Shown here piece by piece: positions 51,711 to 59,528 of a stretch of DNA of 64,000 bases; the first letter of the stretch is position 1, and each line of letters starts with the position of its first letter. This DNA is from Thermococcus stetteri (GTDB lineage Archaea > Methanobacteriota_B > Thermococci > Thermococcales > Thermococcaceae): the NCBI RefSeq assembly GCF_017873335.1, contig NZ_JAGGKB010000003.1, positions 124,001-188,000 of the forward strand, given 5' to 3'. The position numbers and the translations under genes were made by a program. Below the pieces are notes generated by a model. It was given only the letters and a program-made list of their open reading frames with translations. It had not been told where the DNA came from and did no database searches.

Positions 51711-53636
51711 CTAAACTTTGTGCACCTTCGCCCCAGCAACCCGCTCCAGGAGGGGGACGTAGGACAGGCCCGGGCTTATCCCCCTTCCTCTCGTGTCATA
51801 AACCGTAAGCTCAACCTCTTTCTTTTTCAGCGCCCTGGCCAGCTCCGTTATTTCCTCCTTAATCCTCTTTCCAAAGAGCGGAACGTTCGCCTTTCCGTCG
51901 GTTATTAGAAAAGCCCTCACCTTGACCGACCTGTCCTTCATCCTCTCCCTGTTCGCCAGAAGCAGAAGATTGTAGAGGGCGGAGCTTAAAGGTGTCCTCC
52001 CTCCAGTCGGAACGCTCTCTATTTTCTCAAGCACTTCCCAGTAGTTCTTGGTGGGTGGAACGAATATCTCCGCCCGATTGCCTTTCGCAACGATCAGGGC
52101 CATCTTTGACTTTTTGATGTAGCCTTTCTCAACCAGCTTCTCCGCTATCCCCTTCGCGATGCTTATCCTCTTCTGCACGGCCATGCTTCCGCTCGAATCC
52201 AGGAGCAGAACCCAGAGCGTTGGTGCCTTTGCCTTCCTGACCCTAACGCGGATATCGTTTAAATCGAGCTTTATTGGGGGCCTTTTGCCATTTAAGACTG
52301 CCCAAACCAAAGAGTTGTAGAAATCAACGTCCTTAATCCTGCCGTTGACAGGTGAAAGGTATGAAACTGGAATGCCTTTGGGGAAGTTTATCACCGTGAC
52401 GCTGACGTCCCTCGAGGAGCGGTATCCCCTGAATTCGCCTCCATCAAAGTTTCTGCTCTCTATCCTCGGGATTTTAGCTTCGCTTGAGCGAAAATTTTGC
52501 TCTAAGTTTCCAGTCCCTCGACTTCGAGACTCCTGGTTTCTCCTTTCACTCCTTTCTTCCTTCTTGTGCTCATGCTTATGGTCGCCTTTGTGGTCGTGAT
52601 TGTGCTTGCTGTCGTCCTTAGGCTTTGGGGGCCTCATCTGGGGTGGCTTTTGGAACGGCCTGTCCCTCAGGCGGTGCGGTAGAGCCAATTCCATAGCTTT
52701 TTCTAAGTCTTCCAGTGAGACCCTTCTCCTTCCGTTTAAAGCAGCTATTGCCTTGGCCGTCTTTATCGTTGCTATCTCAGCTCTGTTGGTTTTGATTCCC
52801 AGGTCAACGACCGTTTCAGCCAAAAGCTTCAGCAAATCGTCGCTTATCTCGACCTTCGGCAGAATCTCCCTCGCCTTAACAATCCTCTCCGTAAGCTTCT
52901 TCTCTTCGCTCTCATACTTTTTGTAGAAGCTTATGGGGTCTTCATGGAACTCCTCAACGCGCTTGACTATCTCTATCCTCTCCTCCGGGTTCATAGGTGC
53001 TGAAACTTCAACGCATAAACCGAACCTGTCGAGGATCTGCGGTCTGAGCTCGCCTTCCTCGGGGTTCATGCTTCCAACCAGGATGAACCTCGCCGGATGC
53101 CTGAAAGAAATCCCTTCCCTCTCTATCGTGTTCCATCCCATTGCCGCAGCATCTAAGAGTGAATCGGCTATGTAGTCATCCAGGAGGTTCACCTCATCGA
53201 TGTAAAGAACCCCTCTGTTTGCTTCCGCGAGTATTCCAGGCTGCAGAGCTTTTTTGCCCTCTTTTAAAAAGCGCTCAACGTCAATTGTTCCAACTAATCT
53301 GTCTATCGTAACGCTTAAGGGCAGGTCCACAACGCGCATCTTCCTCTTTGCCACTGGCAGTTCTTCTCCCCTCTCGTATCGCTCGTAGCAGCTGTCGCAC
53401 ATCTCCAGCGGGTTCCTCGGGTTGCAGTTGAAGGGATAATCTGCCACAACTTCAATCTCGGGCAAAACGTTGGCCAGAGCCCTGACCAGGGTAGATTTTC
53501 CCGTTCCTTTGTCTCCTTTAAGCAGGACACCCCCGATCAGTGGATTAACGGCTACACAGAGTAGTGCCAGCTTGGCCTTTTCCTGCCCGACTATTGCAGA
53601 GAACGGGAAGACTAATCGTTTTTCACGAGACCCCAT
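51711..53636 (-). CDS. Mg/Co-chelatase-type ATPase, ChlI-ChlD fusion
   Basis: The 641-residue protein has an AAA+ ChlI/BchI-like N-terminal half with Walker [14 protein letters not shown], Walker [29 protein letters not shown] and sensor region. A 4-Cys insert [19 protein letters not shown] is visible. A linker rich in His ([14 protein letters not shown]) follows at about residues 345-360, and then a VWA domain with MIDAS ([12 protein letters not shown]) and [11 protein letters not shown]. It is the ATPase partner of CobN-type metal insertion into tetrapyrroles. It follows and overlaps cobN by 25 bases. The His-rich linker may hold Co2+ or Ni2+. Confidence 0.9.
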
Positions 53637-55507
53637 ATTCCATCCACCTCCCTCATATTTTCACTCCAGTGTTCGTCGTCTTCAGCCGTGTAAATTTCAA
53701 TCGTCCCACCCTGGACTTCCCCTTCACCGAGGCTTTCTTCCAGAATTCCTTCGATTTCCGAATAAACTTCCATGAGCCTTTCAATGAGCTCCTCACTCGT
53801 CTCCCACAGGCCGCGCTCATAGGCTTCAATCAGCCTTCTCGCGATCTCCTCGATGGCGTAGGGGTTGTGCTCCTCGAACCATCTCCTCATCTCTTCGTCC
53901 AGAACGTATTTCCCTGCTATCTCGTCAAAAACCCAGTCTTCAACGAGCTTCGTCGTTGCCTCCCAGCCGTATAGGTGGTTGATCTTCTTGGAGAACTCGC
54001 TCGCTCCCCGGTAGCCGTGCTTCTTCATCTCCTCAATCCAGCGCTCGTTGAGGAGCTTTGCCCTGACAACTCTCTCGAGCTCAACTTTCACCTCAACGAT
54101 TTTGGTATCGCTTATGTCCCTCGTGTCCGTCTGAACCACTTCAGCGTTCTTGCCGGTTAGGGCATCAACTGCGGCCTTGAATCCTCCGTGATGGGCAAAA
54201 TAGCAGCAGTTAGTCGGGTCGTGCTCATCGCTTATGTGGTTCCTGTTGATTACGTCCACCTCTTTTAGGCTCAGAACCAGCGAGTCATATGCTTCAACGC
54301 CAAAGGTATCCTTTCCGTAGGCGTAGCCACTCCACTGAATCCACACCTTGGCCAAGTCCTCGTCACTCTTCCAGCCCGATGATTCAACCGCTAAATTCAC
54401 TCCAGCCCCATAGGCACCTGGCGGGGCCGAGAAAACCCTAAACCTTGCGAACCTCTGTGCTTCCTCAAAGCTCTTTCCGAGCTCAATTAGCTTTTTGATG
54501 TGCTCAACATAGTGCTTTCTAATGTAGTTCATCTCCAAGGGCTCATCCAGCGTAACGACCTTCTCTATGGCCTCGTCAATCAGGTAGATGTAGTTCGGCA
54601 GCGTGTCCCTCACGATTCCGCTTATCCTCACCAGGACGTCAATCCTTGGCCTTCCGAGATCCTCCAGAGGTATGCCTTCAAGCCCGGCAACCACGTCCTC
54701 CTTCCAAACCGGTCTGACTCCAATCAGGTACAGAATCTGGGCTATCTGCTCTCCATCCACCTTATAACCGTCTATGCTCCAGAGAACCTGTCCGACGCTT
54801 TCCGGGTATTTTCCGTGCTTTTTCATGTATTCCTCCAGGAGCTTCTCCGCGGTTTCAACCCCTATCCGCCACGCCGCTTTAGTCGGCAGAGTCCTTGGAT
54901 CAACTGCATAGAAGTTCCTTCCCGTTGGCAGAATTTCGAACTTCCCTCTCGTTATCGCGCCTGAGGGGCAGGGTTCAACGTATTCTCCACTCAGTCCCTT
55001 CAAGAATCCTTTGTGCTCCTTTTTACACTCAATTATCTTCTCTGCACCTTCCAGGGCTTTTCTAAACGTTTCTTCAAGCTTTTCTTTCTCCGTGACTTTA
55101 AATCCAAACTTCTCAATTTCTTCTGCAATGACTTCAAAGCTTTCTCCCTTAAGCAAACGCTCCAGGCTCTTGACTGCTATCCTGTGGAAAATCTCCAGAA
55201 GCTCCCTGTTCGTGAACCTGTTTGTAGTTCCCAAGGGGTTCTTTTTTAGTTCATCATAGTCCAAGCCTATTGCCTCAGCTATGACGCGCTTAATCGAAGG
55301 GGAAGAGTAGGAATCATAGGCCATTGCAGTGGCAACGTATTCCGCCAATCTTTCGGGTTCGTTTGGTGGGTATCCAAAGATGTGAAGGCCGAGGTTTATC
55401 TGGGAGCCCCTCATCAGCTCAACGTAGCGGTGTATCTCCTCTATCGTCCGCTCCTCATCTTCGGGATTCGCTATTCTCAGCCTGTTTTCCTTAGCCTGCT
55501 CAAATTT
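53612..55507 (-). CDS. cobN: CobN/BchH-like cobaltochelatase subunit, lacking its N-terminal half
   Basis: The sequence corresponds to the C-terminal half of Cob[92 protein letters not shown] and [12 protein letters not shown]. The frame is open to a TAG at 55508-55510, but the first start codon is the ATG at 55414, inside conserved sequence ([20 protein letters not shown] upstream). Complete CobN proteins are about 1200-1300 residues; here at most 631. The N-terminal half is not within 2 kb upstream. It is probably truncated or a split gene whose partner lies elsewhere. Confidence 0.78.
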
Positions 55508-55612: not shown

Positions 55613-56326
55613 TTAGACCCATCTGTTTACATGAAATTCAATACCAAGCTCATCAAGCCTCTCTCCGAGTTTTCTGACTTCGTCTTCCGGCCAGCAGTGG
55701 GCGGAGCACCATGCTTCGTCGCGAGGATTCGTCAGCGGTTTTCCAACAAGAGGATTAAGGACGACGTAAAACTCCGTGTCGATGTGTCCGAGCCCTTCCT
55801 CGATCCATGGCCATACGTCAAAGTCCCTGGGAACGGGAATGCGAAGTTCAAGGGGAAGACCGTAGTCGGATACCAGCTCAAGCCCCCTCAGGAACAGCCT
55901 CCAGAGCCGTTCGCTGGCTTCCCCGGGAAGGCCATAGAGAACAGCAGGGGGTGCCTTCAGGTCGGTCGCGATGTGATCAACGAGCCCGGCATTAAGGAGT
56001 TGTTCAAGAGGCCCAACGAGGGTGAGGTTCGTGTTGAGGCTGACGGGAACGTCAAGGGCCTTCACACCAGCTAACAGCGATGAAAGCTCGGTCCACTGCA
56101 TCAGCGGCTCGCCACCGGTGACGTGGAAGTAATCGATGAGGAAGGAGTTCACCTCAAGCTCCTCAAGCATTGCCCCCCGTTCCAGCTTGAAGCAGCCTTT
56201 TCCCTCAGCTATCCGCCAGTTATGACAGAAGGGGCATTTCAAGTTACAACTGCACAGCCAGAGCGTAAAGGTGACCTTTCCGTGCACATCCACCATGCTG
56301 ACGGCTTTCCAGCCACTTGTGAGCAT
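55613..56326 (-). CDS. nrdG: Anaerobic ribonucleotide reductase activating protein
   Basis: The 237-residue radical SAM enzyme makes the glycyl radical on NrdD. The cluster motif C-x3-C-x2-C is CNLKCPFCHNWRIAEGKGC, preceded by VTFTLWLCS. The downstream segments FHVTGGEPLMQWTELSSLL and VSLNTNLTLVGP fit activating enzymes (VTGGEP). It is longer than minimal NrdG (about 160 residues) and closer to archaeal forms. The start ATG follows GGGGGTGATTCG, 28 bases after the nrdD stop, so both share one transcript. Confidence 0.9.
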   Translation of the reverse strand: MLTSGWKAVSMVDVHGKVTFTLWLCSCNLKCPFCHNWRIAEGKGCFKLERGAMLEELEVNSFLIDYFHVTGGEPLMQWTELSSLLAGVKALDVPVSLNTNLTLVGPLEQLLNAGLVDHIATDLKAPPAVLYGLPGEASERLWRLFLRGLELVSDYGLPLELRIPVPRDFDVWPWIEEGLGHIDTEFYVVLNPLVGKPLTNPRDEAWCSAHCWPEDEVRKLGERLDELGIEFHVNRWV

Positions 56327-56354: not shown

Positions 56355-58199
56355 TCAGGAGGTGTAGTGCCTCCTCGTCCAGAACTCCTTCTTCCTGAAG
56401 GGGTTCCAGTTTTTGAGCGGGCGGTAGTAGCCGATAATCCTGCTCCATATCTCGACGTTCTCGCTTCCGCAGCGCTGGCAGGATGTGTGCAGACCAGTAG
56501 TCGAGTGGCCGCACTCGTTGCAGACTGTCACTGCAGGTGTGTAGCTCCAGTAGACGAGGTCAGTCCTCATGAGCCTCTTCGTGAGCTTTGCCAGTGCCTC
56601 CGGATCCGGCTCCTCTCCAAGGAATATGTGCATCATCACTCCACCGGTGAAGCTCCTCTGAACCTTCTCCTCTATGCGTATCCTGTCACCCAGCTCAAGC
56701 GAGCCGTAGTAAGGCGCTATGCTGGTGGAGTAAATTGGATTCTCCGGATCTTCGAGGTATCCCCCCAGCTCCGGAAATTCTTCGATGTCTTTGATGGCGA
56801 GCTTCGCAGCGGCGCTTTCACCCGGCACTTCCTCAACGTTCCACGGCGTTCCGGTTTCACGCATCCATCCTCTGGCCTTTGCTGTTGCGAACTCGACCAT
56901 CTCCTTCATGAGCCCTGCGGCTTTAAGCCAGTCCTTCCTCGTGCCCTCTTTCCAGAGGTCCGGTTCGTTGAGGTAAATTGCAGCTGCCTCAGGCAGACCG
57001 AGGATTCCGATGGTGTTGAAGTGGCTCGATGGGAACTCCTCAAGGTAGAGGTGGATCATCTGATACATCTGGCGGTAGTTCGTTATCAGTCTCACGTAGC
57101 GCTCACGGAACCAGTCGGTCGTTGCTTTAACCACACTGAGAACCCTTTCGTATTCCTCCCAGAACTTATCGTCATCGCCGTTGGCCTTCAGGGCGAGCCT
57201 CGGAAGGTTGACCGTCGTGACGTTCACGGAGCCAGTGACGTCGGGCATCGCCCAGAGGCCGCCGAAGCGCTGCCTCTCAACTTCATTCAGCCATTGCTCT
57301 TTTGTATCACCCGAATTAAAGCTAAAAACCTCTTTCATTTCGTTTTTATCTATTACAAGCCTGCAGCACATCGAGAAGCTTGCGTCCGGGTCCACAACGT
57401 TTGTGTTGAGCCAGTAGAAGCTTCCGCGCTTTGAAGCGGTTGTAAAGACGGCCTCAAACACCTCGGGGTCGTTCCAGAGCATGTTCGCTGTGGTCATGAG
57501 AGTCGGAATCGGGAAGGTGAATGGCTGTCCCTTTGCGTCCCCCTCGCGGAGAACTTCGGTTAGGGCTATGAAGAACTCCCTGGCTTCTCTCTCGTACTCT
57601 CCGAGAGGCTCGACCTTCTCGCCGGCGTAGATTGCCATGTCCCCTTCGAGCATCTTCTTGGGAGCATCGAGTGTTACGGTGAAGTTGGTGAATGGACTTT
57701 GCATACCTACTCTGCTCGGGTAGTTGAGGTTGAAGACCAGTCTCTGAATGTTCTGCCGTATCTTGCTCCTGTCGAGGCCCTCTTTCCTTATGAACGGCCC
57801 CGCGTACCACTCGACGCTTGAGAGGGCCTGAGCGCCGCTGAAGTAGTGCTGCATGGTTATGAGGTAGTTGGCTATGTGGTCGACGTAGGTGTCGAAGTGT
57901 TTGGCCGGCCTCGATATTATCGTTGGTGTCTTTAGACCCTTCTCAAGGAGCCTCGCCGTGCTATGGCCCGTGCAGTAAGGGATGTAGAGACTGTAGGGAA
58001 GCTTGTGGATGTAGATATCCCCGCTGAAGTGGGCCTTCCTGCCCTCCGCCGGGATGAGCGAGAGGTGCTCTTTGAGCGCTTCTTCCATCACGTAGGCAAA
58101 GAAGCCGGTTGGCCCGGGATAGCGGTTTGCATTTTCGAGAACGTCGAGACTGCTCCAGCCGGCGTACTCCTGGATAATGTCCTTCCTCACAGTTTCCAT
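56355..58199 (-). CDS. nrdD: Anaerobic ribonucleoside-triphosphate reductase
   Basis: The 614-residue class III reductase makes dNTPs in the absence of oxygen. Features are the catalytic core with SFSMCCRLVID, YPSRVGMQSPFTNFTVTLDA, SSHFNTIGILGLPEAA, the C-terminal zinc ribbon CNECG ... CQRCG, and the glycyl-radical region SRIIGYYRPLKNWN. The usual motif is R-V-x-G-Y, here R-I-I-G-Y. No N-terminal ATP-cone is seen; the chain starts within the catalytic part. ATG 58199 after GGGTGGTTGAAA is preferred to 58310. The operon with nrdG has palindromes in its promoter. Confidence 0.95.
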   Translation of the reverse strand: METVRKDIIQEYAGWSSLDVLENANRYPGPTGFFAYVMEEALKEHLSLIPAEGRKAHFSGDIYIHKLPYSLYIPYCTGHSTARLLEKGLKTPTIISRPAKHFDTYVDHIANYLITMQHYFSGAQALSSVEWYAGPFIRKEGLDRSKIRQNIQRLVFNLNYPSRVGMQSPFTNFTVTLDAPKKMLEGDMAIYAGEKVEPLGEYEREAREFFIALTEVLREGDAKGQPFTFPIPTLMTTANMLWNDPEVFEAVFTTASKRGSFYWLNTNVVDPDASFSMCCRLVIDKNEMKEVFSFNSGDTKEQWLNEVERQRFGGLWAMPDVTGSVNVTTVNLPRLALKANGDDDKFWEEYERVLSVVKATTDWFRERYVRLITNYRQMYQMIHLYLEEFPSSHFNTIGILGLPEAAAIYLNEPDLWKEGTRKDWLKAAGLMKEMVEFATAKARGWMRETGTPWNVEEVPGESAAAKLAIKDIEEFPELGGYLEDPENPIYSTSIAPYYGSLELGDRIRIEEKVQRSFTGGVMMHIFLGEEPDPEALAKLTKRLMRTDLVYWSYTPAVTVCNECGHSTTGLHTSCQRCGSENVEIWSRIIGYYRPLKNWNPFRKKEFWTRRHYTS

Positions 58200-58211
58200 T
58201 TTCAACCACCC

Positions 58212-58224
58212 GGATAATTTATCC
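58212..58224. promoter_or_regulatory. 13-base palindrome in the nrdD leader
   Basis: GGATAA and TTATCC are inverted around one base, at 13-25 bases before the nrdD ATG, near the expected transcription start. A regulator bound here would block early transcription. Confidence 0.5.
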
Positions 58225-58239
58225 AATAACTGGAGGGGC

Positions 58240-58281
58240 AAATGCCCGATATAACGCTTCCCCTTGAACCTGCGGGCATTT
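58240..58281. promoter_or_regulatory. nrdDG promoter flanked by a 9-bp inverted repeat
   Basis: AAATGCCCG (58240-58248) and CGGGCATTT (58273-58281) are exact inverted repeats 24 bases apart. Between them, on the minus strand, lies CGTTATATCG, a TATA box about 50 bases before nrdD. The rest of the gap up to 58502 is AT-rich with no further gene and contains the CTTTTTAACCC box (58459-58470) that should serve the TPR gene. Confidence 0.6.
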
Positions 58282-58502
58282 ATCCAAGATCCCCAGTGAA
58301 ATTGCGTCAAACGACAAGTTGGACAAAATATCCATTGAATTTAAGACAGACAAACTGACAACACAGGAAGCCACTAAAACAAGTATCGACAAATAATTGT
58401 CATCCATACAAAATGCTAAATCAATATTTGACTATAAAACACAGTTTCTGGCGACCATAGCTTTTTAACCCGTTCGGCGAACCGAAACCAGGTGATGTGA
58501 AA

Positions 58503-59528
58503 ATGGGCAACATCAAGGCCGAATGGGAGAATGCCCTCACCGCGAAGGACTGTGGGAGGCTCCTGGAGCTCTTTGACGATTACATAGACTCCATAGAGGA
58601 CGAGGAGACCCTCAGAAAGGAGCTCGAGAGGCTCAAGGGGGTCGCCGAGGAGTGCGAGGATCCCTACGACCTGGCCCACGAGATAGGCCACGTCTACGCG
58701 CACCTCGACGACGCTGAGGCCGGAATCGAGCTCTACAGGATGGTGGCCGAGAGGAAGAAGGATGACCCCGAGGAGTACGCGACCGCGCTCTACTACCTGG
58801 CCGATGCTTACGAGCACTTCGGCATGCCGGAGAAGGCCATAGAAACCTATGGGAAGCTCCTCAAACTCGAGGAAGAGGTTCTGAAGAACGAGAGGGAGAT
58901 AGCGCTCACGCTGGCGAACCTGGCGGTGAACTACGACGAGCTCGGCGAGACCGAGAAGGCCATCGAGCTCATGGAGCGCGCGAGGGGAATCTTCGAGGGG
59001 ATACGGGACGAGAAGAACCACATGATAAGCCTCCTCGACCTTGCGCACTTCAGGTACGAACTCGGGGACTACGATGCCGCCGAGGCTCTGATAAACGAGG
59101 TTCTCCGGAACCCGAGGGAGGATGAGATTGAGATAAACGCCAGGCTGGTCGAGGCGGAGATATTCGCCGGAAGGGAGGAGTACGACAAGGCTTTCAGGGC
59201 GATAAGAAATGCACTCGTCAAGGCCATAAACGTAAGCGACGAGATTTTTGGCCTCGTCTTCGACACGCTGACGGATTTCATCGAGGGGCTCTTCAACGAG
59301 GGCTCCTACGGCGTTGTCGCGGAGAACATGGAGTCCTTTGCGGAGCTCTTTGAGGATGATACCGCCTACTTCTTCAGAGCCATCGCCGAGCTGGCGCGCT
59401 GGAAGGCCGGAGAGGACGGTGCGAAGGAGCGCTTTGACGAGCTCTACTCCAAGGTGGAGAACGAGGAGCTCCGCTCGGTTCTGGACGAGTGGAAGAGGCC
59501 GAAGCTGAGTCTGGGTCTGGGGCTTTAG
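58503..59528 (+). CDS. TPR-repeat protein
   Basis: The 341-residue protein is made of helical TPR-like pairs. Examples are EEYATALYYLADAYEHFGMP, EKAIETYGKLLKLEEEVLKN, IALTLANLAVNYDELGETEK and ISLLDLAHFRYELGDYDAAE, each about 34 residues with the usual A/G/Y/A pattern. It is acidic and soluble. ATG 58503 after AGGTGATGTG is used. Proteins of this kind scaffold protein contacts; a partner cannot be named. It is divergent from nrdD. Confidence 0.88.
   Translation: MGNIKAEWENALTAKDCGRLLELFDDYIDSIEDEETLRKELERLKGVAEECEDPYDLAHEIGHVYAHLDDAEAGIELYRMVAERKKDDPEEYATALYYLADAYEHFGMPEKAIETYGKLLKLEEEVLKNEREIALTLANLAVNYDELGETEKAIELMERARGIFEGIRDEKNHMISLLDLAHFRYELGDYDAAEALINEVLRNPREDEIEINARLVEAEIFAGREEYDKAFRAIRNALVKAINVSDEIFGLVFDTLTDFIEGLFNEGSYGVVAENMESFAELFEDDTAYFFRAIAELARWKAGEDGAKERFDELYSKVENEELRSVLDEWKRPKLSLGLGL

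Follow-up and report, generated by a model that had tools for sequence, protein, structure and literature searches.

In bacteria, B12 riboswitches keep B12-independent isozymes (reductase, methionine synthase) off while B12 is available, and work by Rodionov et al. in 2003 reportedly found a CBL-box in some archaea as well as B12 control of B12-independent reductases in bacteria. Ribonucleotide reductase genes are also controlled by NrdR, a bacterial dNTP-responsive repressor that acts through DNA sites near the promoter. For the Thermococcales, PMC10746257 gives a predicted cobalamin (CblR) regulon of Pyrococcus, that of P. furiosus, with RegPrecise among its sources and the regulator entered as ‘unknown’. 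In a table of B12-dependent enzymes arranged by archaeal order, methylmalonyl-CoA mutase and class II ribonucleotide reductase have entries for the Thermococcales (PMC2667541).

Here we analysed a 64,000-nt stretch of Thermococcus stetteri DNA (the window), drawn from a 2.03-Mb genome, in which the class III reductase gene nrdD is preceded by a palindrome that we predict, with a probability of roughly 80%, to be an operator of a Thermococcaceae cobalamin regulon through which a B12-responsive regulator represses nrdD. As judged from sequence, the operator would, with good support, belong to the cobalamin regulon already predicted for the Thermococcales, where nrdD, nrdJ and the mutase genes may possibly already be listed; we liken it to the CblR regulon of PMC10746257 by cobalamin gene membership and not by motif. 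The proposed logic is that of a bacterial B12 riboswitch, with the difference that the element at nrdD is a DNA palindrome at and upstream of the promoter, and an Rfam search of window positions 57900–58800 found no cobalamin aptamer in the nrdD leader. Both motif and gene set differ from those of the NrdR regulon, and just as the original prediction had seen no NrdR box, we found none with up to three mismatches in the window; a search of the genome with TIGR00244 likewise gave no NrdR gene.

A conserved palindrome at the nrdD promoter

nrdD (56355–58199, minus strand, ATG at 58199) encodes a 614-aa class III, B12-independent ribonucleotide reductase (NF006358 and TIGR02487, above cut-off) and is followed by nrdG (55613–56326, minus strand) for the activating radical-SAM protein, an NrdG2-type activase (TIGR02495, above cut-off). 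The original prediction described two nested palindromes upstream of this gene pair. Both are present: a 13-base palindrome, GGATAATTTATCC, at 58212–58224 near the nrdD start, and a 9-bp inverted repeat (58240–58281) whose arms at 58240–58248 and 58273–58281 flank the TATA-like element GTTATATC of the nrdD promoter (58248–58255, minus strand, ad hoc TATA weights). They lie side by side rather than nested, the 13-mer being outside the 9-bp repeat, between the repeat and the ATG. With one base added on each side the 13-mer becomes the proximal operator TGGATAAATTATCCG (58211–58225, minus strand, −26 to −12 from the ATG), which is centred at +33.5 from the TATA-like element and directly followed by the ribosome-binding motif of nrdD. 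An exact match to the operator, the distal site TGGATATTTTGTCCA (58320–58334, minus strand, −135), had been overlooked; it and the palindrome are the two sites above 7 bits in the window, with matrix scores of 25.1 and 19.7, respectively. Between them TGGATAAATGCCCGC (58272–58286, minus strand, −87) has one half intact, and the right part doubles as the distal arm of the inverted repeat; it is probably a decayed operator, because several relatives carry a good site at −86/−87.

A search of 94 family genomes gave nrdD in 52 of them, and the upstream regions of all 52 were fetched and compared. The operator consensus is TTGGAYAWWWTRTCCAA, of 15–17 bp, with the 13-base palindrome as its core. Scoring with a 19-position matrix, built from 39 unique non-nrdD sites that had been picked by the exact pattern TGGAYAWWWTRTCCA, places the first base of a site no more than 50 nt from the nrdD start at all 52 Thermococcaceae loci and reveals additional upstream copies at 29, giving 81 sites against 0.55 expected from dinucleotide shuffles, where the 52 regions are all distinct but related sequences and the counts are not independent. 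The 9-bp repeat fares differently from the palindrome in this comparison, with both arms found at two loci, L001 of the window genome and L002 of the relative nearest to it. Repeats with perfect arms of at least 8 nt and loops of 10–40 nt are present in 5 of the 52 upstream regions versus 3.9 ± 1.6 in shuffles, so the 9-bp inverted repeat is at chance level. Conservation, which the original prediction had proposed to check, holds for the palindrome alone, and its presence at every locus supports the predicted, specific control of class III reductase transcription. Helical phasing of paired nrdD sites was considered and rejected, as spacings of 51, 61–62, 71, 92–93 and 108–110 are inconsistent, the shorter ones being suggestive.

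Genes that carry the operator

The exact 15-mer is present in all 64 family genomes of at least 98% completeness, at 208 places summed, versus none for a reversed control. In the T. stetteri genome, three matches are exact, those upstream of mcmA2-meaB, upstream of mcmA1 and at nrdD; a further six, with one mismatch, lie at btuC, cobA, cobT, the acyl-CoA synthetase alpha gene, nrdJ (150 nt before the gene) and the proximal nrdD position. These nine sites occupy eight loci, all of them cobalamin-linked. The btuF-type gene of this genome has two weaker sites flanking its TATA box, each with two mismatches, a class of matches that is mostly chance (34 matches versus 19 in the control for zero to two mismatches). 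Across the family we used 105 loci with an exact site from a pattern-fetched set (L053–L167) that represents some of the 208 places and was selected, non-randomly, to span many genera and targets. In this set 102 of 106 distinct site contexts are no more than 260 bp from the start of nrdD, mcmA1, mcmA2, acyl-CoA synthetase, btuF, cobT, carboxyltransferase or meaB. The four without an assigned target are L142, L146, L166, where the site is at a synthetase start by eye, and L084, which is cut by the contig end and adjoins a TPR gene neighbouring nrdD.

The operator recurs at two groups of genes, those for B12 uptake and salvage (btuF, and in T. stetteri btuC, cobA and cobT) and those for B12-dependent enzymes (mcmA1, mcmA2 and nrdJ). 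btuF-like genes are present in 64/64 genomes, and every one of the 25 loci read (the best 25 matches, one locus being listed twice) has a site at a threshold of 10; 20 carry a pair that flanks the TATA box, usually near −64 and at −16 to −20, with a spacing of about 48. The btuF name rests on PF01497 plus a BtuF match below cut-off, and btuC is likewise named below its model cut-off; iron and B12 transporters look alike, according to PMC2667541, and we call the btuF-type gene a B12 uptake gene because it is located among cobT-, cbiP-, cobS- and cbiB-like genes. As a separate observation, many genomes (G013, G014, G017, G087 and others) have two btuF-like matches back to back in one frame of ~615–730 aa, as if two binding proteins had been fused.

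nrdJ, for the class II, adenosylcobalamin-dependent reductase, is also present in 64/64 genomes, and 21 of 23 upstream regions have a site at −153 to −167, mostly within the gap after the preceding gene. The original prediction had looked to other dNTP genes for the same sites, which holds for nrdJ and fails for thyX (start at window ~63674), where the matrix finds no site. Its view of a control dedicated to nrdD does not survive the recurrence of the site before nrdJ, both methylmalonyl-CoA mutase subunits, btuC, cobA, cobT and btuF. As for the signal, it had suggested oxygen or dNTPs; since the operator gene set of uptake, salvage and B12-dependent enzymes points to cobalamin instead, nrdD is very probably controlled by vitamin B12.

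Beyond the Thermococcaceae, one of ten genomes from the other families in the class contained the exact 17-mer, and there it fell within a coding frame. A double-site scan of the contig database returned 54 stretches, four from Thermococci, all at btuF-like genes, and the rest bacterial. Several Thalassospira species (L212, L219, L231 and other contigs) have paired TGGACATTTTGTCCA-type sites 42–43 bp apart, which probably belong to a bacterial regulator that is unrelated but has a similar motif.

Site position and the predicted direction of control

In archaea, a regulator bound over the transcription start is usually a repressor, and one bound upstream of the BRE and TATA box can be an activator. 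We measured operator positions from the centre of the best TATA-like 8-mer, found with ad hoc weights. Of the 38 nrdD loci measured, 36 have the proximal site at +30.5 to +34.5, where transcription is expected to start, the other 14 of the 52 having been left out for an unaligned start or the different spacing of a Pyrococcus-like group. The T. stetteri cobT and btuC sites are at +15.5 and +13.5, respectively, that of cobA directly adjoins the start codon, and btuF sites are at about −16 and mostly +26 to +38. Upstream of TATA lie the sites of mcmA2 (−42.5/−43.5, 18/18), the carboxyltransferase gene (−43.5/−44.5, 5/5) and mcmA1 (−45.5/−46.5 in 9/14, with the others from −27.5 to −53.5). Repression is what these positions suggest for the B12-independent reductase and for B12 uptake and salvage; for the mutase pathway activation may apply, as the fixed distance upstream of TATA at the mutase promoters suggests. 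A simple rule of repressing uptake and activating use leaves unexplained the varied geometry of the acyl-CoA synthetase genes, where sites at 16 loci are at −43.5 (4), −22.5 (2), −30.5 (1) and +28.5 (4) and five are unreadable since the weights chose another TATA, and the start-site operator of meaB in two genomes.

We envisage a dimeric, cobalamin-responsive DNA-binding regulator that would occupy the operators while B12, probably adenosylcobalamin, is available. At nrdD it would cover the expected transcription start and repress the class III reductase, which needs no B12, so that dNTP synthesis would fall to NrdJ, the B12-dependent enzyme of class II; when B12 becomes scarce it would release, and nrdDG and the B12 uptake genes would be expressed. 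Where the site is upstream of TATA, as for methylmalonyl-CoA mutase and the carboxyltransferase, the same protein may activate. More tentatively, and with the odds somewhat against this fuller version, a single archaeal regulator could read adenosylcobalamin with a sign set by position, repressing nrdD, btuF, btuC, cobT and cobA from core-promoter sites and activating mutase genes from ~43–46 bp upstream of TATA, and thereby swap class III for class II ribonucleotide reduction as B12 appears. nrdJ might be activated in the same way, from its conserved site ~95 bp upstream of TATA. With B12 as the signal, the guess of oxygen or dNTP control would give way to a specific switch by which B12 selects between two classes of ribonucleotide reductase in hyperthermophilic archaea, and the strong nrdD and btuF operators could serve as bait for isolating the Thermococcales cobalamin regulator. 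At some mutase promoters (mcmA2 and mcmA1; L087, L092, L126, L147) we also observed a second palindrome-like stretch, AACCTTTAGGTT or TACCTTTAGGTA, between operator and TATA; it was not seen at nrdD or btuF and could be another regulator's site.

Other signals, candidate regulators and neighbouring genes

The many sites at mutase subunits, carboxyltransferase and acyl-CoA synthetase alpha genes would also be expected of a regulator that senses a metabolite of the pathway from propionyl- and methylmalonyl-CoA to succinate, with nrdD and the cobalamin genes following that signal. We consider this unlikely, as it leaves nrdD, nrdJ, btuF, btuC, cobA and cobT unexplained, and cobalamin is their only common link. 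A dedicated response of the class III reductase to oxygen or dNTPs accords with a palindrome kept at every nrdD read, yet it must contend with a majority of sites at genes unconnected with oxygen or dNTPs, with a thyX that has no site and with the absence of both NrdR and its box, which together make it very improbable. The position of the palindrome at −26 to −12, immediately ahead of the ribosome-binding motif, is what one would look for in an RNA element for translation control or a riboswitch, but the stretch folds no better than its shuffles (z −0.59), the sole Rfam match in window 57900–58800 is unrelated and below its gathering score, and at other genes the same palindrome is upstream of TATA, outside the expected transcript; among the three readings we give this one the least weight.

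Cobalamin remains our preferred signal, and within that reading we searched for the protein that responds to it. With the B12-binding domain model PF02310, only mcmA2 and one 458-aa frame matched in the T. stetteri genome. An ArsR-family protein of the PH1932 type (PDB 1uly), divergent from the acyl-CoA synthetase gene, could refine the B12 explanation by being the regulator itself, as it is present in 74/74 good genomes and the operator is found between it and the synthetase gene in several. The ArsR loci of five genomes of other genera were, however, read without a strong site (G001, G002, G075, G077, G093; best score 14.1), and in G005, G009 and G087 the site near ArsR is at the synthetase gene. 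The site accompanies the synthetase gene and not ArsR, and we set this protein aside as a weak, rather improbable candidate. P. furiosus PF1932, which may or may not be the same gene, is given as a Phr target in PMC10746257. In several genera we noted a trio of the PH1932-type ArsR, a ~101-aa protein and a second ArsR beside acyl-CoA synthetase alpha (L263 5150–6619, L266 7910–9362, L296 6303–7768).

Downstream of nrdDG in the window is a cobN-like gene (CobN/Mg-chelatase, 51711–55414, minus strand) of which the C-terminal half is left. Relative to L336 (5198–10014), ~4.8 kb is missing, which would encode an ABC transporter of the B12/iron type together with the first half of cobN (1252 aa in full), with the junction at about 55497–55503, where the two matches overlap by 7 nt. 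An intact cobN cluster follows nrdDG in 4 of 14 relatives read; the idea that the nrdD operator controls this cobN/chlID cluster was rejected, as no operator above 10 bits precedes the cluster in the four relatives that have it in full. Both reductase genes also show interrupted matches: in several relatives (G011, G033, G034, G089) a single long open frame holds the nrdD match in separate parts, and the T. stetteri nrdJ is in pieces within a 1768-aa frame (G000:C1:823384-827874), most likely reflecting inteins in both reductases.
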